From assembly GCA_000474255.1 (NCBI GenBank), contig BATO01000042.1, forward strand, positions 1 through 51,204: a stretch of DNA of 51,204 nucleotides. The letters run 5' to 3'. Each line of letters opens with the position of its first letter. Position 1 is the first letter of the stretch. Below are positions 8,705 through 29,655 of this stretch, in pieces. The DNA comes from Aquipseudomonas alcaligenes MRY13-0052. Its GTDB lineage: Bacteria; Pseudomonadota; Gammaproteobacteria; Pseudomonadales; Pseudomonadaceae. A model generated the notes under the pieces. That model was not told the DNA's origin. It saw only the letters and a list, made by a program, of their open reading frames with translations, and did not search any database. The translations under genes and the position numbers were made by a program.

Positions 8705-9060
8705 TGGAGCCCCTCCTTGCAGTCGAAGTTGTACAGACTGTGATTCCGACATCGCGGTATTAACCGCCAGAGGGGCCCGGCTTCACGGCAGATAAATTAC
8801 AGAATCCCGGGGCAGGCGCTCAACGAGCGGGCTTTTGCAAAGTGTTTCCTGCGCGTCATGCGAAAGCCCCGCCCGTAACCGGGTGATCTTGACTGCGCAC
8901 AGCCCTGCATGAAGGCTGGAATTGAGCATGAGGCCACCTCGTTGTCGTCTATTGACAGCACTCTGACGCTGGCTAGCCTCAATCGCCTCCGTTGTTGCAT
9001 TCCCTCAGCCAACAGGCCAGAAAGCGCAACGAACGCCCACCCCATGAACAAGGAAGTGTC
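8705..9060. other. Divergent intergenic region, 356 bp
   Basis: The region separates the TerC-family gene (minus) from the C58-like gene (plus). It contains the 8754-8767 hairpin near the TerC side and a good sigma-70-like promoter facing right. I see no gene, REP element or terminator in it. Confidence 0.5.
8952..8979 (+). promoter_or_regulatory. Candidate sigma-70 promoter for the C58-like gene
   Basis: A perfect TTGACA (8952-8957) and TAGCCT (8974-8979) are separated by 16 bp. This would give a leader of about 75 nt before the ATG at 9061. Confidence 0.45.
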
Positions 9061-9651
9061 ATGACCATCGCACGCCATAAGGTCAACCAGTCCAGCGCCC
9101 TCGCCTGCACCGGGAACAATGCCCGGGGCGTTTGCCTCGAAGCCTGCCGCCGCTGGGTCAGGGCCGTTCTGGCGGGCCATCTGACACCCGGTGAAACCAT
9201 CTACGACATCATCGGCCCGGAGACCATCCAGGAACTGCTGGAGAGCCACAGGCAACGCAACAAGAAAAGCGACAACAGCATGGAGGGATTCGGCCTGACG
9301 GTGACCAAGCGGGAAGGCGGCGGCCCCTTCAAGAAATTCACCGGGCTGCGCACGCGCCAGGATGTGATCGACCATGTACTGGCGATCCCGGGCGCCTACA
9401 TCTATGTGGTGGATGGCGCCGATGGCGGGCATGCCCTGGCGTTCAGCAGCCTCGACAGGGAGCACGTGCTGTTCCTCGATCCCAATGTGGGCGAGTGGGA
9501 GCTCATCAATGAAGACCAGGCGTCGATCCGCAACTGGTGGAAGGACTTCTGGGCAGGCAAGGGGTCCGAATTCAAAGGCCTGGTCAGCTACAAGAAGGAG
9601 TACCACAAGGGCGGCCGCGAGCTCTGGCAGTACAAAGTCGTGACGCTTTGA
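9061..9651 (+). CDS. YopT-like (C58 family) cysteine protease candidate
   Basis: This 196-residue soluble protein has no signal peptide. Three motifs match the papain-like YopT/AvrPphB fold in order: Cys25 in ARGVCLEACRRWV, His124 in GGHALAF and Asp140 in FLDPNVGEW. The His-to-Asp spacing of 16 equals that of YopT (258/274). YopT proteases cut prenylated Rho GTPases or host kinases when delivered by type III secretion. Bacterial relatives are also found as toxin domains. No delivery domain or chaperone gene is next to it, and the protein is little more than the catalytic core. The start has AGGAAG about 6 nt before the ATG. The fold call is an inference from motifs, not from a search. Confidence 0.6.
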   Translation: MTIARHKVNQSSALACTGNNARGVCLEACRRWVRAVLAGHLTPGETIYDIIGPETIQELLESHRQRNKKSDNSMEGFGLTVTKREGGGPFKKFTGLRTRQDVIDHVLAIPGAYIYVVDGADGGHALAFSSLDREHVLFLDPNVGEWELINEDQASIRNWWKDFWAGKGSEFKGLVSYKKEYHKGGRELWQYKVVTL

Positions 9652-9732
9652 ACCGTTGAAGCCGCCGCACCACCGGCGGCCCTCCCCGTGCTAGATTTCG
9701 CGACCATTCCAGCGAGGCCCAGGGAGGCGGCG

Positions 9733-10122
9733 ATGACCACGGATATCCATCAGGGCGGTTGCCTGTGCGGCCAGGTGCGCTTCGAGGTGCAGGGCCCACT
9801 CGAAAACCCGCACACCTGCTCGTGTCAGTTCTGCCAGCGGCACAGCGGTGCGCTGACGGTGGCCTGGGTGGAAGTGCCGCGCGAACGGCTGCGCTGGACC
9901 GGCCCCGCCGGTGCCCCGGCGACCTACCGCTCCTCCGACTATTCCAGCCGGGCCTTCTGCGCCCACTGCGGCAGCTCCCTGGGCGCCATCGACGACGAGC
10001 CGACCATCGCCCTGCTGGTGGGCTGCCTCGACCACAAGGATTCCCCCGCGCTGATGCCCACCTATGAATCCTTCGAGGATGGGCGCCCCGCCTGGTGGCA
10101 CGCGGGTGCGCGGCATGACTGA
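9733..10122 (+). CDS. GFA-family zinc-binding protein
   Basis: This 129-residue cytosolic protein has the GFA (glutathione-dependent formaldehyde-activating / CENP-V) fold. Zinc ligands appear in order: GGCLCGQVRFEV, CSCQFCQRHSGA and FCAHCGSSLG. Members are small, and many act as S-(hydroxymethyl)glutathione synthase-like or lyase enzymes; the substrate here is unknown. AGGGAGG lies 6-7 nt before this ATG, which decides the start over an in-frame upstream codon at 9688. The next gene begins inside its last codons. Confidence 0.88.
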   Translation: MTTDIHQGGCLCGQVRFEVQGPLENPHTCSCQFCQRHSGALTVAWVEVPRERLRWTGPAGAPATYRSSDYSSRAFCAHCGSSLGAIDDEPTIALLVGCLDHKDSPALMPTYESFEDGRPAWWHAGARHD

Positions 10123-10579
10123 AGCCAGTGCCGCGACCCCGGGGAGCCTCGCCTCGCTGATCTGGTTCTGGTACGGCGAGGAGGAATATCGCCGGCTGAT
10201 TCTCCTCGGTGAACTGGGCCCGGCGCTGCAGTTCCTCGCCGGAGACGCCGAGTGGCAGCTGGCGAACATCGGCTGCTGCGCCGACTGCGATCTCTGGTCC
10301 TCCTACCTCGATCACCTCGAGGCCTTCGTCGAAGGCTTCCCGCCACGGCTCCAGCCCCGGGCACATGGGCAGCTGCAGGCGCTGCTGGCCGCCTGCATGA
10401 CCCTGAGCCACGGCGCCTACGTCAACCTGGAAGGCAACAACTTCGAACACCCGGAATGGGCGCCGCTGCGCACCGCGGCGCAGGGGGCCCTGGCGCTGCT
10501 GGGCTGGCAGGAGATCGAGGCCGACATGCCGGCGCTGGTGGAGGACTGCCGCGCGGCCCTGGAGAAGTGGCCGGGCTAG
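10115..10579 (+). CDS. Hypothetical protein overlapping the GFA gene
   Basis: This 154-residue cytosolic protein is acidic and Leu/Trp-rich. A notable CCADCD cluster occurs near residue 50. I do not recognise the family. The ATG at 10115 overlaps the end of the GFA gene by 8 bp, which implies coupled translation and a shared transcript. Starts further upstream in frame (10064) would overlap more. Codon usage is like that of its neighbours. No function is proposed. Confidence 0.65.
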   Translation: MTEASAATPGSLASLIWFWYGEEEYRRLILLGELGPALQFLAGDAEWQLANIGCCADCDLWSSYLDHLEAFVEGFPPRLQPRAHGQLQALLAACMTLSHGAYVNLEGNNFEHPEWAPLRTAAQGALALLGWQEIEADMPALVEDCRAALEKWPG

Positions 10580-10581
10580 TT

Positions 10582-11280
10582 CTACAGGACGGTCAGGCCC
10601 AACCCCGACAGCAGCATCGACGCCTGGGCGCGGGAAATGATGGCGCCGTGGAACAGCTTGGCATCCACCAGGCGCAGGCCGTCGAGGCTGGCCTCGCGCA
10701 GGTCGGCCTGGTCGAAACGGGCGTTGTTGACCCGCGCCAGGGACAGGCTGCCACCCTCGACGAACACCGCCTTGCGGAAGTCGCAGTAGCTGAGATCGGC
10801 TTCGGCGAAGTCGAGGTTGTACAGCTCGCCCTTGTAGAACGACAGCCCCGAGAGGCAGGCGCTGCGCAGCACGCAGTCGTGGAACACCATGCCCAGGGTG
10901 GAGGTATCGCTGAAGTTGGCGCCGGTCAGCTTGCAGCCTTCGAAGCGCGCCTGGGCCAGCTTGCTGCGCTGCCAGCGGCTGTTGTTCAGGTCCGAACGCA
11001 GGAAGCGCGCATCGGTGAGTTGCGCCGAGCGGAAGACCGCCTCCGGCGCGCGGCAGCTGATCCACTCGGTGGCTTCGAGCATGGCGGCGGTGAGGTCGGC
11101 AGCGGCAAACAGGCAACGCTCGAAGCGCGCGCCGGAGAGCTCCATGCGCGACAGGTCCTGCCCGCTGAAATCCACCCCGTTGAAATGCAGCGGCAGGCTC
11201 TGCCCACGCAGCAATTCGGCCAGCGATTGCTGCTCCAGCTCATCCGGGCCCACCTGTAGATAGCCGTCCACAACCTGCAT
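10582..11280 (-). CDS. Pentapeptide-repeat protein (Qnr/Mfp-like fold)
   Basis: About 232 residues are made almost entirely of A(D/N)LXX-type pentapeptides, which form a right-handed quadrilateral beta helix. Examples are ANFSDTSTLGMVF and ADLSYCDFRKAVF. A break near residues 95-110 and a C-terminal helical cap resemble Qnr-type topoisomerase-protection proteins, and the length is near that of Qnr (about 218). Other pentapeptide proteins have no DNA-mimic role, so resistance cannot be claimed. The frame starts at 11313, but I prefer the ATG at 11280 (MQVVDGYLQV). A perfect 18-bp palindrome lies 54 bp upstream, consistent with its own regulator. It converges with the gene before it. Confidence 0.8.
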   Translation of the reverse strand: MQVVDGYLQVGPDELEQQSLAELLRGQSLPLHFNGVDFSGQDLSRMELSGARFERCLFAAADLTAAMLEATEWISCRAPEAVFRSAQLTDARFLRSDLNNSRWQRSKLAQARFEGCKLTGANFSDTSTLGMVFHDCVLRSACLSGLSFYKGELYNLDFAEADLSYCDFRKAVFVEGGSLSLARVNNARFDQADLREASLDGLRLVDAKLFHGAIISRAQASMLLSGLGLTVL

Positions 11281-11333
11281 CGCACCGCCCCGGAATCGTC
11301 GAAAAGGCGCCATGGTCGGGGCTCCGCGACGCC

Positions 11334-11351
11334 CCCGTCAATATTGACGGG
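11334..11351. promoter_or_regulatory. Perfect 18-bp palindrome, putative operator
   Basis: CCCGTCAAT-ATTGACGGG is a perfect palindrome with no mismatch. It lies 54 bp upstream of the pentapeptide-repeat start. Unlike the REP elements nearby it is not followed by a second arm. Its size and symmetry fit a homodimeric repressor site. Confidence 0.5.
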
Positions 11352-11392
11352 AACGCCCCTGCTGTGAACAAAGCACCCGCCATGACCTATGC

Positions 11393-11457
11393 GTAGCCCG
11401 GGCGTAGGGTGGGCCGGGCGGCGCTCCGCTTCAGCCCACCAAAGATGGCCCTTCTAC
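11393..11457. repeat. REP-type palindrome overlapping the ABC transporter stop
   Basis: The GTAGCCCGGGCGTAGGGTGGGC core is followed by CTTCAGCCCACC. The TAG stop codon of the leftward ABC transporter falls at its right edge (11454-11456), so this element marks the end of the iron cluster transcript. Confidence 0.6.
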
Positions 11458-13133
11458 ACCGCCACCGCTTCCGCCAACGGCGCCGACTCCAGGTTCAGCG
11501 ACCGTTGGAACAGGCGTTGCACCGTCGGCTGGTGGCTGATGCCGATCACCGTGGCCCTGGGCAGCGCCTGGCGGATCAGTTCCAGCAACCGGCAGGCACT
11601 GGCGTCGTCCAGCTGGTTGGTGGCTTCGTCGAGGTAGAGCGTGTCGGGCTGGTACAGCAAGGCGCGGGCGATGCTCAGGCGCTGCTGCTCGCCACCGGAC
11701 AGCTCGCGGCTCCATTCGCGCTCATCCCCCAGCCGCTCCGTCAGCGCGTCCAGGCCCACCGCCTGCAGCACCTCGCGCAGGCGTGCGTCCTCCGGCAGGG
11801 CCGTGGCGGGATAGGCCAGCAGGTCGCGCAACGGCAGGCTCGGCAGGTAAGGCTGTTGCGGTAGCAGCAGGCTGCGCCCTTCGGGCAGTTGCCAGTCGCC
11901 CCGGCAATAGGGCCAGAGCCCCTGCAGGGTGCGCAGCAGGGTGGATTTGCCCAGGCCGCTGCGACCCTCAATGCGCACCCACTCGCCCTTAGCCACCGAG
12001 GCATCTACGCCGGCCAGCAGCAGGCTGCCATCGGGGCGCAGCACGTCCAGCTGGCGCACGCAGAGCGCCTCGCCGCAGCAGGGTTCGCGCACCTGCACGC
12101 GGCTGCGTTCGATGGACTGCTGGAACTGGCCGAGGCGCTCCACCGTGGCGCTCCACTCGGCCAGGCGCCAGTAGGCGTCGATAAACCAGCTGAGGGAGTT
12201 CTGCACCGCATTGAAGGCGCTGCGGATCTGCATCAACCCGCCGAGGGTGATGGTCTTGGCGAGGAAGGCCGGCAGCGCGGCGAACACCGGGATGATCAGG
12301 CTGACCCGGTCGTAGCCCACGGTGAAGAAGCTCAGGCTGCGCTGACGGTCCATCAGCCGCCGCCAGTTGTAGGCGATGCGTTCGAAGCGCTCGCCCAGGT
12401 GGCGCTGCTCCACTGCTTCGCCGCGGTACAGGGCGATCTGCTCGGCGTGGTCACGGCGGCGCAACAGGCTGGCGCGGAAGTCCGCCTCGCGGTGCTGCTG
12501 CTCGTAGTTGAGGCGCTGCAAGGGGCGGCCGATGCCATGGGTGATGGCCGTGCCGACGATTGTGTAGATCACCGCGATCCACACCAGGTAGCCCTCGACG
12601 GTGAAGCTGTGGCCCCAGAGCGTGAAGGTCTGGGTGCCCGACAGCCCCCAGAGAATGGAGAGAAAGGCACCCACCTGGGCCATGTTGGCGATGAAGGACA
12701 CCAGCAGCTCGACGCTGCGGTCCACCAGCAGCCGGATGTCTTCGGCGATGCGCTGGTCGGGGTTGTCCGGCTCGCCGTCGAAGCCCAGGCGGTAGAAGGC
12801 CTGGCCCTGCATCCAGGCGCCGATGGTGCTGGCGGTCATCGCCCGGCGCCAGCGCAGCACCAAGGCCTTACGCAGCCAGTCGAGGTACACGACTATCACC
12901 ACGTAGCTGCCGATGTAGAGCGCGTACTCGCCCATCAACCTATACAGGTCGTCGGTGCGGAAGGCGCCCAGGGTGTCGTAGAACACCTTGCTCCAGGCGT
13001 TGATCAGCACGTTGATCTGCACCACCAGCAAGCCGAGGCCGATCACCGTCAGCAGCATCAGCCAGGCCTGCCATTGCCGGCGATCGCCCCAGAAGGGCCA
13101 CGCCAGCGTGAAAAAGGTGCGCAGGGTCTTCAA
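11454..13133 (-). CDS. YddA/SbmA-BacA-type ABC transporter, fused permease and ATPase
   Basis: This 559-residue half-transporter matches E. coli YddA (561 residues) in size and layout. The N-terminal ~350 residues hold about six membrane helices of the SbmA/BacA type (from LRTFFTLAWPFWG, with the conserved AWSKVFYDTL stretch). The C-terminal ATPase has Walker A GRSGLGKST, the signature LSGGEQQRLSIARALL and Walker B TLYLDEAT. Relatives import or export peptides and vitamins. The start is TTG at 13131-13133. It overlaps the TGA of the M16 gene (TTGA), with GAGGA 7 nt before it, so translation is coupled. Its place after an M16 protease and a TonB receptor suggests it handles peptides or the cargo released in the periplasm. 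FusD of Pectobacterium is the equivalent. Confidence 0.85.
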   Translation of the reverse strand: MKTLRTFFTLAWPFWGDRRQWQAWLMLLTVIGLGLLVVQINVLINAWSKVFYDTLGAFRTDDLYRLMGEYALYIGSYVVIVVYLDWLRKALVLRWRRAMTASTIGAWMQGQAFYRLGFDGEPDNPDQRIAEDIRLLVDRSVELLVSFIANMAQVGAFLSILWGLSGTQTFTLWGHSFTVEGYLVWIAVIYTIVGTAITHGIGRPLQRLNYEQQHREADFRASLLRRRDHAEQIALYRGEAVEQRHLGERFERIAYNWRRLMDRQRSLSFFTVGYDRVSLIIPVFAALPAFLAKTITLGGLMQIRSAFNAVQNSLSWFIDAYWRLAEWSATVERLGQFQQSIERSRVQVREPCCGEALCVRQLDVLRPDGSLLLAGVDASVAKGEWVRIEGRSGLGKSTLLRTLQGLWPYCRGDWQLPEGRSLLLPQQPYLPSLPLRDLLAYPATALPEDARLREVLQAVGLDALTERLGDEREWSRELSGGEQQRLSIARALLYQPDTLYLDEATNQLDDASACRLLELIRQALPRATVIGISHQPTVQRLFQRSLNLESAPLAEAVAV

Positions 13134-15943
13134 TGGGAAGTCCTCAGTACCGGCGCCGGGGTCAGCAGCACCTGCACCCGGTTGGCCGGGTCCGCCAGGC
13201 GCGTGGCCAGGCCCTTGAGTGCCTCCACCTGCAGGGCGTCCGCCACTGCCGACTGCTGGGCGAGGTAGTGCGGGTCCTGCCATTTGCGTTCGCTGAGCAC
13301 CAGGCGGCGCAGCTGGGTTTCCGCATCGTCATGGCGCAGCCCTTCCTGGCGCACCAGCTCGCGACGCAAGGGCGCCAGGGATTTTTCGTCGATATGCCGG
13401 GGCAGCTCGGCCAGGGTGCTTCGCGCCAGTTCGCGCAGCTCGTCCAGCCGCGCCGGGTCGCAGGAGAAGCTCAAGCGGCTCTCGATGCGCTGGCTGTAGG
13501 GGTTCAGTTCGGCATCGAAGTTGAGGCTGTAGATGCCCCCCGCCTCGCCCCGCAGCGCCTGCTTGAGGCGCTGCCGCGCCAGCTCCCGCAGGGCGGCGAC
13601 GCGCGCGGCGTCCTGGGGGTTCCATTCGTGCGCCTGGTAGCTCAGCAAGCGCAGGCTGGCGCGGGGTTCCAGGGCCATTTCCAGCTCGCCCTGGCGCTGC
13701 CCCGGTTGCTGCAGGGCGGAACGGCTTTGCAGCGGCTGCCCACGGGGAATGCTGGCCAGCTCGGCGCGCACCCAGCCCTCCAGCTGCTCGGCCGGTACAT
13801 CGGCCATCAGGTAGTAGGTAACGGGCGCACGGACCAGGCGCTGCCAGTCCGCGTCCAGGGTGTCGCGGTTCAGCGCGGCCAGTTCGTCGCGGCTCGGCAG
13901 TACCCAGCCGTCATCGCCATGGCTGAGGCGGCGCTGCAGGTCGTCCTGGCGTTCGCGCACGCTGTCGCGGCTGCGCTGAATGCGCTCGCCCAGGTCCGTG
14001 CGCGCCGCTTCGAAGGCCTGCGGATCGATGCTCGCCTGCTGGCTGAGCCGGTAGACCTGCAGCAGTGCCTGCACATCCACCGGCGCGCTCGACTTGCCGG
14101 CCGGCGTCGGCAGGTGGCCGAGGTCGATTTCCAGGCGCTGGGCCTGCTGCTCCAGGGCGAAGGAAACCCGCTGTTCGCTGCGCCACAGCCGCATGGCCTC
14201 CGGGCTCCAGCCCGCCGGCCCGCTCTGCCCGGCCAGTTGCGCGGCCATCTGCACACGCCAGGGCTGCATCCCCTCGACCATGAAGCCGGCGGAGGATTCG
14301 GCCTTGAAGCCCACACCGCCCTTGGCACCAGGCTTGCGCAGCCAGACCAGGCGATCACCGTTGCTCAGTTGCCAATGCTCCACCTGCTCGGCCGCGAAGC
14401 TGCGCCGCGAGACGATCTCGCCAGGCGCGCCGGGGCCGGGCACCTCGGGATGGGTGACCACGGGCTCGACCTCCGGCTGCCAGGGCTGAGGCCGCGCCAG
14501 CGGCTGCACGGCCAGTTGCGCGTTCAGGCGCTGCACCTCGGCGACCGTGGGCAGGCGCAGGGGCGTGAGGCCGGGCGCACTGAGCTGCAACACCTGGTCG
14601 GGGCTGTCGACCCAGGTGCGCAGGCGCTGGTTGATCTCATCCAGGCCGACGCTGTCGAGCACGCCGAGGTAGGCACGGGCGATCACATGCTTGCGCTGCA
14701 CCGGGCGACCCAGCACAGCGGCGTCGTTGAGTTCGTTGATCCAGCTCTGGAAGTCACGGGTATCGGGCCGTTCGAGCATGCCCTGGGCGGTGCTGCGCAC
14801 CCGGGCCTTCTGAGCGTCCATGTCCGCCTCGCTGATGCCGAAGCGGCGCAGGCGCTCGACCTCGCCCAGCAATTGGCGCAGCGCCGCATCATGGCTCTCG
14901 CCGGTCACCCCGGCGGCCACGCCCAGTACGCTGGAGTGGTTGCCGATCTGGGTCTTCTGCAGGCTCAGGCTGCGCACCCCAGGCTGCAGCGGCTGGCGCC
15001 GCAGCTGGGCGAGCATGGCCGACAGGGTGAGGCGGTCCACCAGGCGCTCGCGCAGCCCGTCCGGCCCTTCGGCACGGCTGGCCGGCTCGTGCAGGCGGAA
15101 CAACAGGGCCACCTGGTTGCTGCCACTCTGGCTGTCCTGCAGGTGGAAGATCTTCAATTTCCCGTCCAGGGGCAGCTCGCGGTGCTCGCGGCTCGGCACC
15201 GCCTGCCCGGGCACCTGGCCCAGGGCCTGCTCGATGGCTGCCGCGACGCGCTGCGGGTCCACGTCGCCGACGATGCTCAGCACCATGTTGCCTGGCTGGT
15301 ACCAGCGCTGCTGGAAGGCCTTGAGCGCCTCCACCTGTGCCGCACGGATGGCCGCCTCGTTGCCGATGGTGCGGTGCTCCGGGTAGCGCGAACCGACGCG
15401 CTGGGAGGCGGTGCGCTGGTCGTTCATGCGCTGGGCGTTGCCCAGGCCGCCCCGCCATTCCTCCACCACCACCGGGCGCTCGCGCTCCAGGTCCTCGGCG
15501 CGGTAATCCCCGGCGAACACCAGGGTGGCCAGGGCATGCAGGGCCGGCTCCAGCTCCGCCGCGCCCTTGGCCGGGCTGAGCAGGTACTGGGTGCGGTCGT
15601 AGCTGGTCACGGCGTTGTAGTTGCGGGCCTGCTGCCAGCCCAGGGCCTCCATGCGCTGGCGTACGTTCACGCCCTGCCCGCCCCGGCTGTAGAAGGCCAG
15701 GTGCTCCAGCAGGTGAGCCACGCCGACCTGGTCGTCCGCCTCGTCCACCGAGCCGGCGCGCACCGTCAGGCGCACATCCAGCCGCCCGGCTTCGGAGCGG
15801 TCCTCGACCACCCGGTACTCCAGGCCATTGTCCAGTTCGCCACGCAGCACGCGGTCATCCCAGGGCAACCGCTCGCCCCCGCCCAGGCTCGCGCAGCCGG
15901 CCAGCAGCAGCGGGCCGAGCAGGCCCGCGATCATCTTCTTCAT
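13130..15943 (-). CDS. M16-family zinc metallopeptidase lipoprotein (PqqL/FusC-like)
   Basis: This 937-residue pitrilysin-family protease is close to E. coli PqqL (931). It has a lipobox (LLLAGC, Cys17), so it is membrane-anchored in the periplasm. The inverted zinc motif HLLEH is at 77-81, and the downstream Glu ligand lies in VVVEEWRG (161-162). The full two-half, four-domain length suggests a clamshell protease acting on unfolded or bound peptides. It starts 30 bp after the receptor stop and overlaps the ABC gene, making a receptor-protease-transporter operon. FusC cleaves imported ferredoxin to free iron, and that is the leading hypothesis here. The substrate is unproven. Confidence 0.88.
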   Translation of the reverse strand: MKKMIAGLLGPLLLAGCASLGGGERLPWDDRVLRGELDNGLEYRVVEDRSEAGRLDVRLTVRAGSVDEADDQVGVAHLLEHLAFYSRGGQGVNVRQRMEALGWQQARNYNAVTSYDRTQYLLSPAKGAAELEPALHALATLVFAGDYRAEDLERERPVVVEEWRGGLGNAQRMNDQRTASQRVGSRYPEHRTIGNEAAIRAAQVEALKAFQQRWYQPGNMVLSIVGDVDPQRVAAAIEQALGQVPGQAVPSREHRELPLDGKLKIFHLQDSQSGSNQVALLFRLHEPASRAEGPDGLRERLVDRLTLSAMLAQLRRQPLQPGVRSLSLQKTQIGNHSSVLGVAAGVTGESHDAALRQLLGEVERLRRFGISEADMDAQKARVRSTAQGMLERPDTRDFQSWINELNDAAVLGRPVQRKHVIARAYLGVLDSVGLDEINQRLRTWVDSPDQVLQLSAPGLTPLRLPTVAEVQRLNAQLAVQPLARPQPWQPEVEPVVTHPEVPGPGAPGEIVSRRSFAAEQVEHWQLSNGDRLVWLRKPGAKGGVGFKAESSAGFMVEGMQPWRVQMAAQLAGQSGPAGWSPEAMRLWRSEQRVSFALEQQAQRLEIDLGHLPTPAGKSSAPVDVQALLQVYRLSQQASIDPQAFEAARTDLGERIQRSRDSVRERQDDLQRRLSHGDDGWVLPSRDELAALNRDTLDADWQRLVRAPVTYYLMADVPAEQLEGWVRAELASIPRGQPLQSRSALQQPGQRQGELEMALEPRASLRLLSYQAHEWNPQDAARVAALRELARQRLKQALRGEAGGIYSLNFDAELNPYSQRIESRLSFSCDPARLDELRELARSTLAELPRHIDEKSLAPLRRELVRQEGLRHDDAETQLRRLVLSERKWQDPHYLAQQSAVADALQVEALKGLATRLADPANRVQVLLTPAPVLRTSH

Positions 15944-15973
15944 CAGGAAATCTCGGTCGTTCTTATGGAGGGG

Positions 15974-18862
15974 TCAGAAGCGGTAGCCGACTTCGAGCCA
16001 GTACTGGCGGCCGACTTCGTAGCTGGTGGAACCGGATCGCGTGACGATGGGGTTGACCTTGTCCATCACGTTGGTCACGTCCACCGCGGCGAATACCGCC
16101 TGGTCGGCGCCGGTGGGGACTTCCCAGTAGACGCGGGTGTCCCAGGTCGGTGCAGCCGGCACCGAGGCGGCGTCATAGACGTCGTATTCAACGCCATTGA
16201 TGGTTTGCTGATCCCCAGTGAAGACAATCTGGTCGTACTTGCCGCGGTAGCGGAAGAAGTTGCTCCAGATGATGTTGAGCGCAGGGATATCGGTGATGGT
16301 GGTCAGCCGCGCGGTCCAGGGGCGGTTGAAGTCATCGGAAGGCAAACCGCTCCAGGCCATGATCTTGCCGTCGTAGATCACATCCTCGTCGGACTCTTCG
16401 GCGTCAGTGATGATGCGCTCATAGCCCTGCATGTTGCTCTGGGTCTGGCTCCAGTTCATGGCGAGCTGCAAGGAGGTGGCAGTGCCGAAGCCCTTCATCT
16501 TCCAGTCCGGCGTGACCGTGAAGGTGACGTTGTCACTGCGGCTCTTGCCGATGTTGGAAAACACGTAGTAGTTGCGGATCAGGGTGACGCCGTCGCCCGG
16601 CTCCAGGTCGAGCGTGTTGGCGCTGGCACGGAACACCTGGTCACGCCCTTCGCGGCGAACGTACTTGAGGTCGAAGGTGGTGTCGTACCAGCGCTGGGTC
16701 ACGCCGAGCGCCAGCTCGTCATCGTAGGGAATGTCCAGCTGGCGGAACGAGTTCTCGTTGACGCCGTAGTTCACCCAACCACCGAAGTCGGTGATCTGGT
16801 TGCCTGTGCTGGCCAACCGCGTGCGACGCCAGCGCAGCGCCTCGCGATCATTCATCAGGCGATAGGCGAAGAGATTCCTGCCGTAGTAGCGGTTCAGTCC
16901 ACCGGTGAGCAGCGTGCTGCGATCACCGAACAGGTCGTACTCCATGGAGAAACGCGGGGCGAAGGTCTTCTTCGCCATGTAGTCGTCACCGTCGAAGCGC
17001 AGGCCCGGGCGCAGCGTGAGTTTCCCCAGCTCGATCCTGTCCTGCATGAACAGCCCGTAGCGGTTTTCGGTCTGCTCGACCTCCCCTTCGCGGTAGTAGT
17101 TGAGAAAGCGGAAATACTGGCGGACCGGAGCGCCCTCTGCGTTGACGCTGACCGAGCAGTAATCGTCGTCCTGAATGCCGCTGAGCGTCCTGCAGGTGAG
17201 GTTGCCACTGGTGTTTGCGGCCAGGCTGAGCGTCGTGGCGGTATAGATATCGGACGAGCGCTCATAGCGGCCGGTCTTGGTTTCGAGCTCGAGCCCGGTC
17301 TGGAAGTTATGCGTCACTCCCGCCCAGGTCAGCGGCAGCCAATCGGCCTTGAACACATAACTGGCGCCTACCTGGGTCTGTTCCAGATCGCCGTTCCCGC
17401 CCTCGAAGCTGGTAGCAGCCGCAGAGAGAACGCCATTGCGATAAGGATTACCCCAGTTCTTGTCCTGCGACCAACGCCAGTTCTTGAAGACGTTGCTGTC
17501 CGAGGTGCGCGTGCTCTCAAGGTTGGTGTAGGCGAACGTGTGCGTGTAGTTGGCGGCGTCCCCCAGCCATTTGGCGACCATGCCCGCCTGGTACCCCCCT
17601 TGGTGAATCTGGGAGCCCGAGTTCTTGACGTTGGAGCGGAAATACTCCGCCTCCTGCGGCGCATGGGTGAGGCTGAAGCTCATATCGAGGCGGTCATTCA
17701 CTGCCCAATAGGACTTGAGCATGAAGTTGTCGATCTCGCGCCGCTGGTCTTTCTTCACCGAATCGCCCTGGCTCTGAAAACCGCCGTCATAGGCGAACAG
17801 CGGAATGACCGAGGTCTTGCGCGAGAACGCGGCCATCACACCGAAGTCATCGGTCAGGTGCCCTTCGACCATCCCCCTCAGGGTGAGCTTCTCGAACTCC
17901 GGTTGGTTCTGCGCGTCACTCGACTCCTCGAAGGCTGTCTTGTCTTCGTCGGCGATGTGGAATTTGGTCCATTCCGAACGGGTCATCCCGGCGGATAGCT
18001 TGCCGTGCAACTCCTGGCTGGGACGACGGGTCTTGGCATCCACGACGCCACCGTTGAAGCCGCCGAATTCCGCCGGCACGTTACTGTCGTAGACGGTCAC
18101 GGACTCCAGCAGGTCGGCGTCCAGCGCAATGCCGTGGGCCCGGCTTGGCAGTCGTTCGAGGTGAGTCAGGTCTCCCCAGGAGTGCTGCCCCGGGTCGAGG
18201 TCGTTGTTGATCGAGACGCCATCGATCATGAAGTTGTTCTGGTAGAACTTGGCCCCGTTGATGCTGATGTCCGCCGGGTCGATCTCGCCGCCGGTGTTCG
18301 AGCTTTTCTGCTCGGTGCTGAACTGCACGCTGGGGTGCATCTGCAGCAGCGTGGTGATGTCGCCGTTGGCGCCGGGGAAGGCTTCGATGGCGCGGCGATC
18401 GATCACGGTCTCGCCCTGAAAGCCGCTCTCGGGTGGCGCCCCCAGCACCACGGTATTGCCCAGTTCGATCACGTCCCCGCCCGCGCTTTGCAGTGCATGG
18501 AAGATGACATTGCCGTATTGGAAGCTCCAACCGATGCCGCTGTCCTGCAGCAGCTTCTCCAGGGCCTGTTCGCTGGTGAGCGAGCCCTTCACCGGGCGCG
18601 ACAGCTGGTTCGCCAGCAGCGCGGAATCCATGGTCAGTTGCAGCCCGCTCTGCTGGCCGAAGGCGATCAGCGCGGCGGCCAGGCTCTGGGCCGGGATGTC
18701 GAAGGCGTGGGCCTGCTGCAGGACGTTCTCGCTGGCGGCCGCTTCGGCGGCCTGGGCCATCACGCTGCCCAGGGCGCAGCAAAGGCCGAGGGCCCCCGCT
18801 CCGGCGGCCCGGCCGAGTTTCCTGCGTAGTGCGCTACTGAGGCTGTTGGACTGCTGTTCCAT
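15974..18862 (-). CDS. TonB-dependent receptor with STN signalling domain, FusA/YddB-like
   Basis: This is a 962-residue outer-membrane beta-barrel, longer than most siderophore receptors (~700-800). After a signal peptide, the STN domain (about residues 60-130; FDIPAQSLAAALIAFGQQSG) contacts the FecR protein. The plug follows from about 140 (TVVLGAPPESGFQGE), then the barrel ending in YWLEVGYRF. The start at 18862 is set by GGGGAG 4-5 nt upstream; the frame extends 11 codons further. An upstream FecI-type promoter (18934-18961) controls it. With the protease and transporter behind it, it is the counterpart of FusA or YddB. The ligand is unknown: an iron protein such as ferredoxin is a reasonable guess, not a finding. 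Confidence 0.85.
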   Translation of the reverse strand: MEQQSNSLSSALRRKLGRAAGAGALGLCCALGSVMAQAAEAAASENVLQQAHAFDIPAQSLAAALIAFGQQSGLQLTMDSALLANQLSRPVKGSLTSEQALEKLLQDSGIGWSFQYGNVIFHALQSAGGDVIELGNTVVLGAPPESGFQGETVIDRRAIEAFPGANGDITTLLQMHPSVQFSTEQKSSNTGGEIDPADISINGAKFYQNNFMIDGVSINNDLDPGQHSWGDLTHLERLPSRAHGIALDADLLESVTVYDSNVPAEFGGFNGGVVDAKTRRPSQELHGKLSAGMTRSEWTKFHIADEDKTAFEESSDAQNQPEFEKLTLRGMVEGHLTDDFGVMAAFSRKTSVIPLFAYDGGFQSQGDSVKKDQRREIDNFMLKSYWAVNDRLDMSFSLTHAPQEAEYFRSNVKNSGSQIHQGGYQAGMVAKWLGDAANYTHTFAYTNLESTRTSDSNVFKNWRWSQDKNWGNPYRNGVLSAAATSFEGGNGDLEQTQVGASYVFKADWLPLTWAGVTHNFQTGLELETKTGRYERSSDIYTATTLSLAANTSGNLTCRTLSGIQDDDYCSVSVNAEGAPVRQYFRFLNYYREGEVEQTENRYGLFMQDRIELGKLTLRPGLRFDGDDYMAKKTFAPRFSMEYDLFGDRSTLLTGGLNRYYGRNLFAYRLMNDREALRWRRTRLASTGNQITDFGGWVNYGVNENSFRQLDIPYDDELALGVTQRWYDTTFDLKYVRREGRDQVFRASANTLDLEPGDGVTLIRNYYVFSNIGKSRSDNVTFTVTPDWKMKGFGTATSLQLAMNWSQTQSNMQGYERIITDAEESDEDVIYDGKIMAWSGLPSDDFNRPWTARLTTITDIPALNIIWSNFFRYRGKYDQIVFTGDQQTINGVEYDVYDAASVPAAPTWDTRVYWEVPTGADQAVFAAVDVTNVMDKVNPIVTRSGSTSYEVGRQYWLEVGYRF

Positions 18863-18933
18863 CTGGCTCCCCGCGCGGGCAAATCGGCCCGCCAATCAGT
18901 GAATGCGAATTGATCGCAGTTGCTGTGCGAGGC

Positions 18934-18961
18934 AAAGGACGGGACAGCTCGGAAATTTTTC
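18934..18961 (-). promoter_or_regulatory. FecI-type ECF promoter upstream of the receptor
   Basis: On the minus strand GAAAAA is followed 15 bp later by GTCCTTT. From memory, the fecA promoter is GGAAAT, 16 bp, GTCCTTT. The match and position, 72 bp before the receptor start, fit transcription by the neighbouring sigma factor. Confidence 0.6.
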
Positions 18962-18999
18962 AGAAAAAGTGAAAAAAGTTTTCAGAGGCGCTGCTGGCG

Positions 19000-20004
19000 T
19001 CATTCGCCGCGGGAAATCACCAGCAGGTAGGGGCTCCAGGATTCGACCCTGCCGCCATGGGGTTGGGCCATGGCGCGCAGGGCCGCTTCGGGGTTGCGCA
19101 GGTCGTAGACGCCGGTGATGCGCTGCTCGGCCAATTGCGCGTCGCGCAACAGCACCGTGCCCGGCAGGTAGGGCTTCAGTTGCTCGACCATGTCGCCGAA
19201 ACGCGCGTTGTCGGCGATCAGCTGGCGGTTGCGCCAGGGCGCCACCTGTCCCACGGGCAGGGTGCCGCGTTGGGCCTGGCGGTCGCCGCCATAGGCGAGG
19301 GTCTGCCCTGCCGTAAGCGCGGCGGCCAGTTCGTGCCCGGCATCGCGGTCGGCGACCCGCACCGAGCCGTGCACCACGGCCACGGCGCTGCGCGCGCTGC
19401 CGAGGTCGACGTTGAAGGCGGTGCCGGTGACCTGCACGTCGAGCGCGTCGGCCAGCACATGGAAGGGTCGCGCGCTGTCCTTGGCCACCTCGAAGAAGGC
19501 CTGGCCACGGAGCAGCTTCACGTCACGGCGCTCGCTGGAGAAGACCACGGCGATGGCGCTGTCGCCGTCCAGTTGCAGGCGGCTGCCATCCGGCAGGTCG
19601 ATGGATTTCAACTCGCCCCGGGCGGTGCGGTAGTCAGCCTCCAGCGGTGTGCGCAGGCCAGCCCCCAGGCCCAGCACCAGGCAGGCGGCGATGGCACCGG
19701 CCAGCCAGCGACGGGCATGGCGACGACGCTGCGGTGAGCGTGTCGGCAATGGAATGACCTGTGCTTCAGGCTCGGCAGCGGGCGGCACCGCCGGCCAATC
19801 CTGGCGGGTGGTGGCCTGCAGCTGGCCGGTGAGGCGCCAGAGCCGTTCGGCCTTGCGGAAGGCTTCGGCGTTGTCCGGCTCGGCGTCGTGCCACGCCTGG
19901 AACTCCGTCGCCAACGCCGCATCACCGGGTGCCTGCTGCAGGCGCAGCAGCCAGTCCAGGGCGATATCCCGGCGGGCTTGGGTTTCGGCGTGGGGCATGG
20001 ACAT
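19000..20004 (-). CDS. FecR-family anti-sigma regulator
   Basis: This 334-residue protein has the FecR layout. An N-terminal cytosolic sigma-binding region has the RDIALDWLLRLQQAPGDAA signature and the WHDAEPDNAEAF motif. One membrane helix lies near 115-135 (LAGAIAACLVLGLGAG), followed by a periplasmic domain ending in a C-terminal STN-like receptor contact. It transmits receptor occupancy to the sigma factor. The frame is open upstream to overlap the sigma gene at 20112, but the ATG at 20004 has GGAG 5 nt before it and starts right at the conserved domain. It is followed by the receptor promoter, not by a coupled receptor gene. Confidence 0.88.
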   Translation of the reverse strand: MSMPHAETQARRDIALDWLLRLQQAPGDAALATEFQAWHDAEPDNAEAFRKAERLWRLTGQLQATTRQDWPAVPPAAEPEAQVIPLPTRSPQRRRHARRWLAGAIAACLVLGLGAGLRTPLEADYRTARGELKSIDLPDGSRLQLDGDSAIAVVFSSERRDVKLLRGQAFFEVAKDSARPFHVLADALDVQVTGTAFNVDLGSARSAVAVVHGSVRVADRDAGHELAAALTAGQTLAYGGDRQAQRGTLPVGQVAPWRNRQLIADNARFGDMVEQLKPYLPGTVLLRDAQLAEQRITGVYDLRNPEAALRAMAQPHGGRVESWSPYLLVISRGE

Positions 20005-20104
20005 CCAGTCTCCGTGGGCTGAAACGGCGCGAGAGGGTCGCACATTGCGGCCATCCTCGGCAAAAGACGTTTCTCCGACGTGTTTTTTCAGAAATTCATC
20101 GACC

Positions 20105-20617
20105 TCAGCCATCGGCCTGCTCCAGACGTGCGGAACAGTAGGCCAGCGCGTCGTGCACCAGTTGATGGACCAACCCCACCGACACGCCCAGGGCGGTGGC
20201 CACCTGTTGCAGGGTGTAGCCACCCAGGCGGTGCATCTCGAAGGCGGTGCGGGTGCGCTGGGGCAGTTCGGCCAGGGCCTCGCTGATCAGTTGCAGCTCG
20301 TCGATGCCGGCCACTTCGCGCTCGGGGGACGCCGTCTCGGCCGGCAGCTCGGCCAGCACGGCATCGCCGTCGGGCTGGCGCCGTTCGGTGGCCAGGCGCC
20401 GGGTCAGGTCGAGGGAGAGGTTGCGCACGATGCGGTACAGGTAGCCCACCGGGTGGCCGATGGCCTGGGCATCCGGCTCGCGGCCATCGAAGCGCAGCCA
20501 GGCTTCCTGGACCACGTCCTCGGCGCGCGCACGGCAGCCGACAATGGGCGCGGCGTAGTCCACCAGTGCGGCGCGATGGGCGAGATAAAGGGAAAGTTTG
20601 TCTGCGGGCAAGATCAC
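20105..20617 (-). CDS. ECF sigma factor, FecI family
   Basis: This 170-residue sigma-70-family factor has regions 2 and 4 only. Region 2 includes RAEDVVQEAWLRF. Region 4 includes LPQRTRTAFEMHRLGGYTLQQVA and a helix-turn-helix with VSVGLVHQLVHDAL, typical of FecI/PvdS iron-starvation factors. The start is GTG (20615-20617) with no strong ribosome binding site visible. A high-scoring Fur box lies 38 bp upstream, so it is expected to be made only when iron is scarce. It likely transcribes the receptor through the FecI-type promoter downstream. Its own operon partner is the FecR gene. Confidence 0.9.
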   Translation of the reverse strand: MILPADKLSLYLAHRAALVDYAAPIVGCRARAEDVVQEAWLRFDGREPDAQAIGHPVGYLYRIVRNLSLDLTRRLATERRQPDGDAVLAELPAETASPEREVAGIDELQLISEALAELPQRTRTAFEMHRLGGYTLQQVATALGVSVGLVHQLVHDALAYCSARLEQADG

Positions 20618-20655
20618 TGCACTGCTGGCTGGCCGGATTGGGCGGTTCGACTCAA

Positions 20656-20672
20656 ATGATAATCGTTATCAT
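20656..20672. promoter_or_regulatory. Fur box upstream of the ECF sigma gene
   Basis: ATGATAA-TCG-TTATCAT is a 17-bp near-perfect palindrome that agrees with 15 of 19 positions of the GATAATGATAATCATTATC consensus. It lies 38 bp upstream of the sigma GTG in the 94-bp gap after oxyR. Confidence 0.85.
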
Positions 20673-20711
20673 ACATGTCGCCCCGCCCCTCCACCAGAGC
20701 CCGCGCGCCGA

Positions 20712-21617
20712 TCAGCCGTCTTCCCTACCCGGCCCACGGGATACCGAACACAGCCGCACCGAGTCAGCCAGCACGTCGATGGCGCGCGGCCTGGGGAAGC
20801 TGGCGCGCCAGGCGATGGCCACCTGGCGGAACGGCACCGGCGCGCTGAAGGGGCGGATGGCCACGGAGCCCGGCGAGTAGTGGTGGCCGCTCACCGCCGA
20901 ATGGGGCAGCACCGAGACGCCGAGCCCGGAGGCGACCATGTGGCGGATGGTTTCCAGGGAGCTGGATTCCACGCTGGCACGCTGGGTGGCCGGGCACACC
21001 TCCAGCACCCGCTCGCGGAAGCAGTGGCCCTCCCCCAGGATCAGCAGTTCGGCATCCTCCAGCGCCTCGGCCGAGAGACGCTGCTCGGCCGCCAGCGGGT
21101 GGTCGGCGGGCAGCAGCACACAGAGGGCTTCGTCGTAGAGCACCTTGGTCAGCACATCGGGCTCGGAGAACGGCAAGGCGACGATGATGGCGTCCAGCTC
21201 GCCTTCCCGCAGCCGCTCGCGCAGCACGTGGGTGAAGTTCTCCTCGATGTACAGCGGCATCTGCGGGGCCACGGTGTGCAGCTGGGGGATCAGGTGCGGG
21301 AGCAGGTAGGGCCCGATGGTGTAGATGGCGCCGACCCGCAGCGGCGAGGACAACTGGTTGCGCCCGGCGTGGGCCATTTCCAGCACGGCATTGGCCTCGG
21401 CCAGCACCTTGTGCGCCTGCTCGATGATGCTTTCGCCGATGGGGGTGAGGTAGACGGCGCCCTTGCTGCGCTCGAAGAGCAGCACGCCGAGGTAGTCCTC
21501 CAGGCGCTTCATGCCCACGGAAAGGGTCGGTTGGCTGACGTGGCAACGCTCGGCGGCGCGGCCGAAATGCTGTTCCTGCGCCAGGGCAACGGCGTAGCGC
21601 AATTCGGTAAGGGTCAT
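20712..21617 (-). CDS. oxyR: OxyR, peroxide-sensing LysR-type regulator
   Basis: This 301-residue protein has an N-terminal helix-turn-helix (HFGRAAERCHVSQPTLSVGM) and a regulatory domain. The redox pair is at Cys199 and Cys208 in GEGHCFRERVLEVCPA, at the same numbers as in E. coli OxyR. Peroxide oxidises them to a disulfide and activates transcription. It is divergent from katB, its classic target, across a 204-bp gap. In P. aeruginosa oxyR is next to recG instead, so this linkage is different. The four-part OxyR operator (ATAG-N7-CTAT) was not identifiable by eye in the gap. Confidence 0.93.
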   Translation of the reverse strand: MTLTELRYAVALAQEQHFGRAAERCHVSQPTLSVGMKRLEDYLGVLLFERSKGAVYLTPIGESIIEQAHKVLAEANAVLEMAHAGRNQLSSPLRVGAIYTIGPYLLPHLIPQLHTVAPQMPLYIEENFTHVLRERLREGELDAIIVALPFSEPDVLTKVLYDEALCVLLPADHPLAAEQRLSAEALEDAELLILGEGHCFRERVLEVCPATQRASVESSSLETIRHMVASGLGVSVLPHSAVSGHHYSPGSVAIRPFSAPVPFRQVAIAWRASFPRPRAIDVLADSVRLCSVSRGPGREDG

Positions 21618-21821
21618 GGGTCGTCCTGCGTGCGAGCCGCTTGCGCGGCCTCCTGGTGAAATCGGGGTGGGGCTTGTACCCGAGAACTCTAAGCAGGCGG
21701 CGCGCGTAGGACCTTTAATATTTCCTAATCGCCAGGCTGACCAAATCCTATTATCCGCCCCCTCCCGCGCTCCCTATGGTTCAGGCCGCAACACCCGAAC
21801 CAGAGACATCAGGAGACGCAA

Positions 21822-23348
21822 ATGTCCAGATTCCAACGCACCGCCCCCGGCCTGCTGGCGGCGGCATGCCTGTTCAATCTTTCCATGGCTGTGGGTGCAC
21901 CACTGACCCGTGACAACGGCGCCCCCGTAGGCGACAACCAGCACTCTCAGACAGCCGGGCCGAATGGTTCCGTGCTGCTGCAGGACGTGCAGTTGATCCA
22001 GAAGCTGCAGCGCTTCGACCGCGAACGCATCCCCGAACGGGTGGTGCACGCCCGGGGTACCGGCGCCCACGGCGAGTTCGTCGCCTCGGCGGACATCGCC
22101 GACCTGACCGTCGCCAAGGTCTTCCGCAACGGCGAGCGCACCCCGGTGTTCGTGCGCTTCTCCTCGGTGGTGCACGGCAACCACTCCCCGGAAACCCTGC
22201 GTGACCCGCGCGGCTTCGCCACCAAGTTCTACACCGCCGACGGCAACTGGGACCTGGTGGGCAACAACTTCCCCACCTTCTTCATCCGCGACGCCATCAA
22301 GTTCCCGGACATGGTCCACGCCTTCAAGCCGGACCCGCGCACCAACCTGGACGACGACTCGCGCCGCTTCGACTTCTTCTCCCACGTGCCGGAGTCCATC
22401 CGCACCCTCACCCTGCTCTACTCCAACGAAGGCACCCCGGCCGGCTACCGCTTCATGGACGGCAACGGCGTGCACGCCTACAAGCTGGTCAACGCCAAGG
22501 GCGAGACGCACTACGTGAAGTTCCACTGGAAGACCCTGCAGGGCATCCGCAACCTCGACCCGAAGGAAGTCGAGGCCGTCCAGGGCAAGGACTACAGCCA
22601 CATGACCACCGACCTGGTGAACGCCATCGCCAAGGGTGACTACCCGAAGTGGGACCTGTACATCCAGGTGCTCGAGCCCAAGGACCTGGCGCGCTTCGAC
22701 TTCGACCCGCTGGACGCCACCAAGGTCTGGCCCGACGTGCCCGAGCGCAAGATCGGCCAGATGGTGCTCAACCGTAACGTCGACAACTTCTTCCAGGAAG
22801 CCGAGCAGGTCGCCCTCGCGCCCTCCAACCTGGTGCCGGGCATCGAGCCCTCCGAAGACCGCCTGCTGCAGGGCCGCGTGTTCGCCTACGCCGACACCCA
22901 GCTCTACCGCGTGGGCACCAACGGCCTGTCGCTGCCGGTGAACAAGCCCCGTGGTGCGGTGAACAACGGCAACCAGGACGGCAGCATGAACGTCGGCCAC
23001 ACCAGCAGCGGCGTGAACTACGAGCCGAGCCGCCTGCAGCCCCGCGAAGCCACCGCCAGCGCCCGCTACGTCGAGACGCCGCTGCAGGGCAGCACCCAGC
23101 AGCGCGGTATCCAGAGCGAGCAGAACTTCAAGCAGGCCGGTGACCTGTACCGCTCCTACGGCAAGAAGGACCAACAGGACCTGGTCAACAGCTTCGGCCA
23201 GTCCCTCGCCGGCACCGACAGCGAGAGCAAGCACATCATGCTGTCCTTCCTCTACAAGGCCGATGCCGACTACGGCACCCGTGTCACCAAGGTGGCCGGT
23301 GGCGACCTGGCCAAGGTGAAAGCCCTGGCCGCCAAGCTCACCGACTGA
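21822..23348 (+). CDS. katB: Periplasmic heme catalase KatB
   Basis: This monofunctional catalase decomposes hydrogen peroxide. It has 508 residues with a signal peptide (LLAAACLFNLSMAVGA). The catalytic His76 lies in PERVVHARGTGAHGEF, Asn in NNFPTFF and the proximal heme Tyr in RVFAYADTQLYRVG. The start has AGGAG 6-7 nt upstream. It is followed by ankB, as in P. aeruginosa. A TATTAT hexamer at 21749-21754 is a possible -10. The leftward partner is oxyR, so peroxide induction is expected. Confidence 0.95.
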   Translation: MSRFQRTAPGLLAAACLFNLSMAVGAPLTRDNGAPVGDNQHSQTAGPNGSVLLQDVQLIQKLQRFDRERIPERVVHARGTGAHGEFVASADIADLTVAKVFRNGERTPVFVRFSSVVHGNHSPETLRDPRGFATKFYTADGNWDLVGNNFPTFFIRDAIKFPDMVHAFKPDPRTNLDDDSRRFDFFSHVPESIRTLTLLYSNEGTPAGYRFMDGNGVHAYKLVNAKGETHYVKFHWKTLQGIRNLDPKEVEAVQGKDYSHMTTDLVNAIAKGDYPKWDLYIQVLEPKDLARFDFDPLDATKVWPDVPERKIGQMVLNRNVDNFFQEAEQVALAPSNLVPGIEPSEDRLLQGRVFAYADTQLYRVGTNGLSLPVNKPRGAVNNGNQDGSMNVGHTSSGVNYEPSRLQPREATASARYVETPLQGSTQQRGIQSEQNFKQAGDLYRSYGKKDQQDLVNSFGQSLAGTDSESKHIMLSFLYKADADYGTRVTKVAGGDLAKVKALAAKLTD

Positions 23349-23358
23349 CCCACCCAAC

Positions 23359-23382
23359 GCCGGCCCGCACACGCGGGCCGGC
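23359..23382 (+). promoter_or_regulatory. Perfect hairpin between katB and ankB
   Basis: GCCGGCCCGC-ACAC-GCGGGCCGGC has 10-bp perfect arms, 10 bp after the katB stop and 15 bp before ankB. There is no T run, so it is more likely an mRNA-stability or partial-attenuation stem than a terminator. Confidence 0.55.
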
Positions 23383-23397
23383 TTACGGAGGCCCGAG

Positions 23398-23928
23398 ATG
23401 AAATACACACTTCTCACCCTGCTGCTCTGGGTCGGCCTGGCCCAGGCCGAGCCATCACCCGACCCGGCCACCATCAAAGCCGAACTGGCCCAACGCTATT
23501 TCGACGCCGCGCGCGAAGGCCGCCTGGATGTGCTCCAGGCCTTCATCGACGCCGGCTACGACCTGAACACGCAAGACACCAAGGGCTACAGCGCCCTGAT
23601 CCTCACCGCCTACCACGGCCACGCCGAAGCGGTGGACGCCCTGCTCGCCGCCGGCGCCGATCCCTGCCTGCAGGACGCCCGCGGCAACACCGCGCTGATG
23701 GGCGCCATCTTCAAGGCCGAGCTGGGCATCGCCCACCGCCTGATGAACGCCGTCTGCCCCACCGACCAGCGCAACGCCGCCGGGCAGACCGCCGCCATGT
23801 ACGCCGCGCTGTTCCAGCGCACCCAACTGCTGGATCAGTTGCGCGAGCAAGGCGCCGACATGCAATTGAAGGACGCCCTCGGCAACGATGCCGAAAGCCT
23901 CGCGCGGGGGGAGATCCGTACCCGCTGA
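23398..23928 (+). CDS. ankB: Ankyrin-repeat protein AnkB
   Basis: This 176-residue protein has a short signal peptide (LLTLLLWVGLAQA) and about four ankyrin repeats. Examples are GYSALILTAYHGHAEAVDAL and GNTALMGAIFKAELGIAHRL. It sits after katB, and in P. aeruginosa AnkB supports KatB activity in the periplasm. GGAGG lies 7 nt before the ATG. Its expression is probably partly set by the strong hairpin before it. Confidence 0.9.
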   Translation: MKYTLLTLLLWVGLAQAEPSPDPATIKAELAQRYFDAAREGRLDVLQAFIDAGYDLNTQDTKGYSALILTAYHGHAEAVDALLAAGADPCLQDARGNTALMGAIFKAELGIAHRLMNAVCPTDQRNAAGQTAAMYAALFQRTQLLDQLREQGADMQLKDALGNDAESLARGEIRTR

Positions 23929-24019
23929 CAGCGGTCCGGAGCGCGCGCCGTTAAGCAGGTAAACATCCACGCCCTGGTGCAACCAGACCTCGGGGCATAC
24001 AGCCGCCACTCACTTCGGA

Positions 24020-24090
24020 CGTAGGGTGTGCTGCGCGCACCTGGAGCTCGCCGGAAACACCGAGCGGCGGTGCGCACGGCACACCCTACG
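24020..24090. repeat. REP-type inverted repeat
   Basis: CGTAGGGTGTGCTGCGCGCACC and its mirror GGTGCGCACGGCACACCCTACG flank about 27 bp. The arms match except near the inner loop. Confidence 0.6.
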
Positions 24091-24208
24091 GCACGCGTTC
24101 ATCCTGTCGAGCCCTCAATTCAAATCGTCACAGGCAGCACCGATGACTCATGACCACGCTCAAATGAATTCGCACCTGCAAAGGTGGGCTCGGCGCGGGC
24201 GGATGGGC

Positions 24209-24230
24209 GTAGGGTGGGCTTCAGCCCACC
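24209..24230. repeat. REP-type palindrome, single
   Basis: GTAGGGTGGGCTTCAGCCCACC, a compact hairpin of the same family as the neighbouring elements. Confidence 0.55.
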
Positions 24231-26676: not shown

Positions 26677-26739
26677 GGGCGACAGGACCGGTGCGAGGTG
26701 CCCCCAGGCACCCCGCACCGGCAACCACCGGAGCACGAC

Positions 26740-27039: not shown

Positions 27040-27050
27040 GCCGCGCCCCC

Positions 27051-29648: not shown

Positions 29649-29655
29649 CCGGCGC

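Follow-up and report, generated by a model that had tools for sequence, protein, structure and literature searches.

A gene cluster in Aquipseudomonas alcaligenes MRY13-0052 raises the question of whether an import system of the Fus type, the machinery with which certain bacteria that rot plants obtain iron from a protein of the plant, can be placed under the control of the molecule that it imports. The cluster lies in a window of 51,204 nucleotides (contig BATO01000042.1), which is the whole stretch of DNA that was analysed. Five minus-strand genes (11454-20617) encode FecI-, FecR-, FusA-, FusC- and FusD-like proteins (Table 1), so that the components of FecI/FecR signalling, a sigma factor, FecR and an STN-bearing receptor, are encoded together. 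An earlier note, made from the sequence alone, had described five adjacent genes with these domains, and their place, strand and Pfam domains were all borne out. The TTG/TGA overlap that it saw between the protease and transporter genes is also real, and an overlap of the NTGA type recurs in 48 of the 51 other Pseudomonas-type loci described below.

Table 1. Features of the cassette and its surroundings, in positions of the window
Feature	Position	Strand	Details
fecI-like ECF sigma factor gene	20105..20617	-	170 aa, GTG start; Sigma70 r2/r4 (Pfam)
fecR-like anti-sigma/regulator gene	19000..20112	-	370 aa; DUF4880 + FecR (Pfam); overlap with fecI of 8 bases
FusA-like TonB-dependent receptor gene	15974..18862	-	962 aa from ATG; Plug (Pfam)
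Receptor parts			STN, about aa 41-128; plug and barrel from about aa 146
TonB-box-like stretch NTVVLGA	18437..18457	-	receptor aa 136-142
FusC-like M16 protease gene, lipoprotein	13130..15943	-	937 aa; Cys17, HLLEH; Peptidase_M16 + M16_C
FusD-like fused ABC transporter gene	11454..13133	-	559 aa, TTG start; ABC_membrane_2/SbmA_BacA + ABC_tran
Fur-box-like site before fecI	20652..20670	-	
ECF-type promoter-like motif before fusA	18938..18963	-	CTGAAAA-N15-CGTC
Second conserved block, presumed fusA leader	18898..18920	-	
Accessory island	10580..20729		about 10.15 kb; pentapeptide-repeat gene and five-gene cassette

Among solved structures, the receptor is closest to FusA (4zgv; 322 bits, 9e-95), which it matches across residues 136-961, the 826 residues of plug and barrel; YddB follows with 252 bits (1e-73). 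The best siderophore receptor reaches 35 bits, and its match is confined to the STN part. Identification as an ordinary siderophore receptor, an outcome that the earlier note had named as fatal to its Fus-like reading, was rejected on these scores. The signalling domain claimed in the same note scores 18.5 bits, under the Pfam cut-off of 28.4; among solved structures, it nonetheless matches the signalling domains of FpvA (5e-8), HasR (4e-7) and, weakly, PupB (0.011).

The protease is similarly nearest to Pectobacterium FusC, with 603 bits as compared to 159 bits for E. coli PqqL. In a tree of 23 rows it lies inside a Pseudomonas clade (support 99), and the enterobacterial Fus proteases are sister to that clade (joint support 98); PqqL and four other M16 proteins, named as the outgroup by the analyst, stand apart, and several branches are long. 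The expected M16 lipoprotein with an HLLEH zinc site is confirmed by zinc residues that are invariant in all 56 FusC rows and by Cys17, which is present in 51 of 52 Pseudomonas-type rows; no cysteine is found there in any of the 4 enterobacterial rows, and a strict lipobox pattern occurs in 34/52 and 0/4, respectively. The transporter is 55% identical to the protein of the Dickeya locus and 39% identical to YddA. Known members of the SbmA/BacA-like group, to which it belongs, move peptides.

The receptor, protease and transporter had been described as equal in kind and order to both fusA-fusC-fusD and yddB-pqqL-yddA. This proves partly right. The kinds are the same, and the order is that of Fus in Pectobacterium and Dickeya, with which the window also shares the zinc site and FusC R180. 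However, the E. coli genes run yddA-yddB-pqqL in the direction of transcription, and fusB, present in the four enterobacterial Fus loci, is missing here. Beyond the absence of fusB, the window differs from Fus in the STN domain of its receptor, in the presence of fecI-fecR and in the lipoprotein-type cysteine of its FusC. The E. coli set comprises proteins of the same kinds (26% identity for the receptor, 23% for the protease, 39% for the transporter), and Fur control is common to both, as far as it can be predicted for the window, but it is clearly less alike than Fus and has no FecI, FecR or STN at its locus. Because the FusA, FusC and FusD scores are higher and the E. coli order differs, the comparison with FusA/C/D is the better one. 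Membership in the YddB/PqqL group was rejected on the protease scores, the tree placement, the 23% identity to PqqL and the gene order.

The distribution of the signalling genes was followed in a scan of named genomes in which two peptide patterns, derived from aligned Pseudomonas-family proteins, served as queries and the 80 best matches were retained; for both reasons it favours the Pseudomonas group and yields no frequencies. It gave 73 loci, of which 56 (L057-L112) were analysed, and 17 distant ones (L113-L129, 21-31% identity) were left out of the counts. The 56 consist of 51 Pseudomonas-type loci, four enterobacterial loci (Dickeya, Klebsiella, Tatumella and Erwinia) and one from Roseibium (L112, 30% identity) that was placed in neither class. 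Most Pseudomonas-type loci are from Pseudomonas itself; others are from Stutzerimonas, Pseudothauera, records labelled Pantoea, a Paucimonas MAG and a gammaproteobacterial MAG.

An STN match precedes the plug in all 51 Pseudomonas-type loci at E <= 1e-4 (50 of 51 at 1e-10). The fecI-fecR pair is inside the flank examined in 45 of them and elsewhere in the genome in the other six, where FecR has 54-56% identity and the next best match 38% or less. In two of these six (L145 and L146), one contig carries fusA with fecI-fecR upstream of it, and gaps of 9 and 14 kb separate fecR from fusA. The coordinates in three more fit the same upstream arrangement if the same contig is assumed, and in the last (L148) fecR is near the end of another contig. 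STN, FecI and FecR matches are found in none of the four enterobacterial loci. FusD accompanies FusC in 49 of the 51 loci (it is missing in L093 and L096); the protease, by the selection of the loci, and the ABC gene therefore stay with the receptor in related genomes, a co-conservation on which the Fus-like reading had been made to depend.

Several loci show local peculiarities. In the P. cichorii/viridiflava group, the stretch between fecR and fusA (L145:2539-9102) holds genes for TonB, ExbD, ExbB, a phytase and another TonB-dependent receptor, and similar genes are located at L146:7184-11722. Possibly the L145 block serves phytate uptake and was inserted as a set into the cassettes of strains associated with plants. 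In P. dryadis, the main cassette is directly preceded by an additional FecR-STN-FusA set (L106:21-3990), which is 41-47% identical to the window. Four loci (L088, L104, L105 and L110) have short receptor frames (313, 284, 770 and 560 aa, respectively, from stop to stop), the result of sequencing error or decay.

The control regions are conserved as well. The Fur box reported before the sigma gene corresponds to a site with 4 mismatches in 19 bases, as compared to 8 for the best of 50 shuffles, and sites with at most six mismatches to the 19-base Fur consensus precede fecI in 49 of 52 regions and in 21 of 2600 shuffled regions. As a second control, 20 random 170-base windows were taken per locus; in 12 of 52 loci, one or more of them likewise had six mismatches or fewer. 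The case for a Fur box in the leader of fusA was considered and dropped as weak (14 of 52 regions with seven mismatches or fewer, against 126 of 2600 shuffles, on one strand). Eight promoter patterns, chosen by eye, were counted before fusA: TGAAAA (shuffle mean 1.3) and GAAA-N14-20-GTC (shuffle mean 1.7) are each found in 50 of 52 regions, CTGTC is modestly enriched (18 of 52, shuffle mean 8), and GAAAT, TGTC, GTCC and GAAAAATT show no excess in the 52 regions. Of 51 loci, 47 have the exact form TGAAAA-(10-17)-CGTC close to the receptor start, the spacer being 15 in 46; elsewhere the pattern occurs 44 times in 2.27 Mb, both strands counted. In L075 and L110 the motif is visible in the region before fusA and the receptor start is placed elsewhere; in L093 and L096 the form of the motif is altered. 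A similar pattern has five matches in the window's own genome, including the fusA site, and one in the reversed control. Since fecA transcription needs a region downstream of its start, as stated in the available part of PMC9249621, the second conserved block in the presumed fusA leader may be the counterpart of that region. The association in 51 of 51 loci, the promoter-like motif and the Fur-like box together provide good support, at the level of sequence, for the coupling of the importer to FecI/FecR that the earlier note had claimed.

The dedicated TonB homologue FusB, with its RRxxYP motif, is absent from the window cassette. A protein with the FusB motif RRVNYP is encoded in all four enterobacterial loci (two of the four were checked as TonB_C) and in 0 of the 51 Pseudomonas-type loci. 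The window's own genome has seven TonB_C matches, of which five show the YP motif, none of these five with RR. The aspartate of the FusA TonB box that pairs with FusB is an asparagine in the window receptor, at a position that varies in the Pseudomonas-type group. In Pectobacterium, FusB is required for ferredoxin import and the general TonB is no substitute, according to the portions of PMC7593965 that were available, and import without FusB would therefore need another mechanism.

Different parts of the cassette also have different closest relatives. The plug and barrel are closest to those of loci from P. fuscovaginae, P. chlororaphis and P. morbosilactucae (66-68% identity for the barrel, at most 56% for others), whereas FecI, FecR, STN, FusC and FusD are closest by identity to Pseudomonas sp. 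MF4836 or the cichorii group. Trees were made from 27 of the 52 rows with a fast model, and the groups were picked after the identities were seen. In these trees, a grouping of the window with fuscovaginae/chlororaphis is rejected by FecI+FecR, FusC and FusD (p-AU 0.008, 0.0005 and 0.001), and a grouping with MF4836/cichorii is rejected by the plug and barrel (p-AU 4e-43). With FusC, a tree other than the MF4836/cichorii grouping is best (p-AU 0.119), and with FusC+FusD this grouping has a support of only 81. STN alone, which is too short to decide, rejects neither grouping (p-AU 0.345 and 0.316). One FecR row of these trees (L062) has 22% identity to the window in the comparison of identities and 49% in tblastn, so its extracted frame is probably partly wrong. 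The receptor barrel differs in ancestry from its neighbors, and the conflict of plug and barrel with FecI+FecR, FusC and FusD, which the trees and AU tests support, indicates that barrels have been exchanged between cassettes. Judging from identity, STN likely stayed with FecR during this exchange.

On this evidence, the cassette is likely to be a protease-associated import system of the Fus type that is subject to cell-surface signalling. When iron is scarce, as the Fur-like box suggests, Fur would leave the fecI promoter, and FecI and FecR would be made. Outside the cell, an iron-bearing protein or large peptide would be bound by the large receptor, whose STN domain would signal to FecR; FecI would then become active and drive fusA-fusC-fusD from the TGAAAA-N15-CGTC promoter, a step suggested by the anatomy of the locus and its conservation. 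If the remaining steps resemble those of Pectobacterium Fus, the ligand would be pulled in by a general TonB and not by a dedicated FusB, the membrane-anchored FusC would cut it, and the cofactor or peptides would pass through FusD. It is probable that the importer is switched on by the very molecule that it captures. The FecI-FecR-FecA, FoxI-FoxR-FoxA and HasI-HasS-HasR systems likewise combine an ECF sigma factor, a FecR-like regulator, a receptor with a signalling domain and a Fur-like box. In the window, however, this set is joined to an M16 protease and FusD, and the presumed ligand is the protein that is itself taken in. By analogy, HasR with HasA is a precedent for a FecI-type system triggered by a protein: in the account given in the available part of PMC9249621, HasR answers to the heme-carrying protein HasA, and heme rather than the protein is taken up.

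Other explanations of the cassette turn in part on what the ligand is. Import of plant-type [2Fe-2S] ferredoxin as in Pectobacterium Fus, with FecI/FecR merely added, would be a special case of the import system just proposed, and we consider it unlikely. FusA and FusC are the closest solved relatives, and several carriers are named for plant hosts or plant disease in their record titles. In the crystal structure of FusC, as given in the accessible text of PMC6071955, ferredoxin is bound by arginines 180, 332, 796 and 798, one of which is kept in the window, where the residues are R, Q, S and N. R180 is found in 52/52 Pseudomonas-type and 4/4 enterobacterial rows, and R796 in 40/52 and 3/4, which is consistent with ferredoxin. 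However, R332 is found in 1/52 Pseudomonas-type rows (Q or V in 51/52) as compared to 4/4 enterobacterial rows, and the FusB on which ferredoxin import in Pectobacterium depends is not encoded at the locus. R798 is present in 21/52 Pseudomonas-type rows and absent from all four enterobacterial ones, which makes the arginine test a weak one, and an imported protein, let alone ferredoxin, is only weakly constrained by these residues as the inducer. These residue patterns are suggestive rather than decisive; as the ligand, we favour an iron-bearing protein or large peptide, and plant ferredoxin would at most be one ligand among others.

A ligand of a different kind, a small molecule or peptide siderophore, would leave the protease with another role, such as clipping a signal or a peptide carrier. 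The membership of FusD in a group of peptide movers fits this explanation, and most known receptors linked to FecI/FecR answer to siderophores, citrate or heme (PMC9249621, in its available part). Nevertheless, the match to FusA extends across plug and barrel, siderophore receptors match at the STN part alone, and a FusC-type protease is kept with the receptor, so a siderophore seems improbable. It is far harder to accept that FecI, FecR and STN are a neighbor or relic that does not control the importer at all. The six genomes where fecI-fecR are not beside fusA, two of which could be read through and have 9 and 14 kb of other genes in between, are what one would cite for a relic; yet fecI, fecR and STN persist in those same six genomes along with the promoter-like motif before fusA, the association holds in 51 of 51 loci, and the four enterobacterial loci are without STN, FecI and FecR together.

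Protease-associated import systems, including a FusC-bearing Pseudomonas cluster, are described in the main text of Grinter 2019 (PMC6793856), and the kind of system is thus already known. The window cassette probably belongs to the 'Pseudomonas' cluster of that paper, in which FusA homologues occur with FusC in Pseudomonas. FecI, FecR and STN occur 0 times in its main text, and the coupling may be drawn in its context figure or table. Among the matches listed for open-access PMC, no title or start of an abstract reports FecI/FecR or STN in a Fus-type locus. In P. plecoglossicida, a fusA termed a 'ferredoxin receptor' is raised by an iron chelator, and 'sigma' appears 0 times in the available text (PMC8981516). 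Judged against the main text of PMC6793856 and not its gene-context figure or table, the substrate-sensing control and the absence of FusB look new. It may be, and we suggest this tentatively, that these cassettes constitute a second, FusB-free class of importer, in which the prey protein is sensed via FecR/FecI, a housekeeping TonB is used, and barrels are swapped while the regulators and the protease-transporter half stay, which would let evolution re-aim the system. Few protease-associated import systems have a known prey protein. Should the present reading be right, the cells carry their own reporter, a ligand-switched promoter, and screening protein extracts against it could reveal the substrate. 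The absence of FusB likewise offers a way to test whether a folded protein can be imported only with the help of a TonB that grips it.

The cassette is located on an accessory island. In the closest congener searched, the site is empty: window 9040-10579 and 20730-30463 align to stretches 21 bases apart, so 10580-20729 is an addition in the window's species. For a second congener, the alignment covers the right side of the island only. Within the genus, 2 of 18 genomes encode the protease, and both belong to the window's species. In a family sample of 398 genomes, 27 match at E <= 1e-30; 24 of these have a full-length FusC (47% identity or more), one match is partial (G282), and two are at 26-27% (G305 and G308). 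A low G+C content of fusA was dropped as a sign of foreign origin, since the receptor-minus-protease difference, -0.089 here, deviates by about 1.5 SD from the mean of 48 other loci. Among 72,556 plasmid records, five have a FusC relative, with 26-35% identity, and none of the five is from Pseudomonas. These plasmids (NC_014840.1, NZ_CP044010.1, NZ_CP043499.1, NZ_CP045340.1 and NZ_AP025505.1) are large and are from Pantoea, Rhizobium and Vibrio.

The island also holds a pentapeptide-repeat protein gene (10582-11313, minus strand), which is found in 2 of the 18 genomes of the genus and has matches in 0 of 56 other FusC loci. At 8992-9651 on the plus strand, a 219-aa frame has a weak match to Peptidase_C58 (YopT-like; E 3e-6, 27.5 bits against a cut-off of 23) and scores below the cut-off of the NCBIfam model; a congener (L161) aligns across it. 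Nearby, at 8737-8788 on the minus strand, there is an Rfam match to terC RNA with 47.8 bits.
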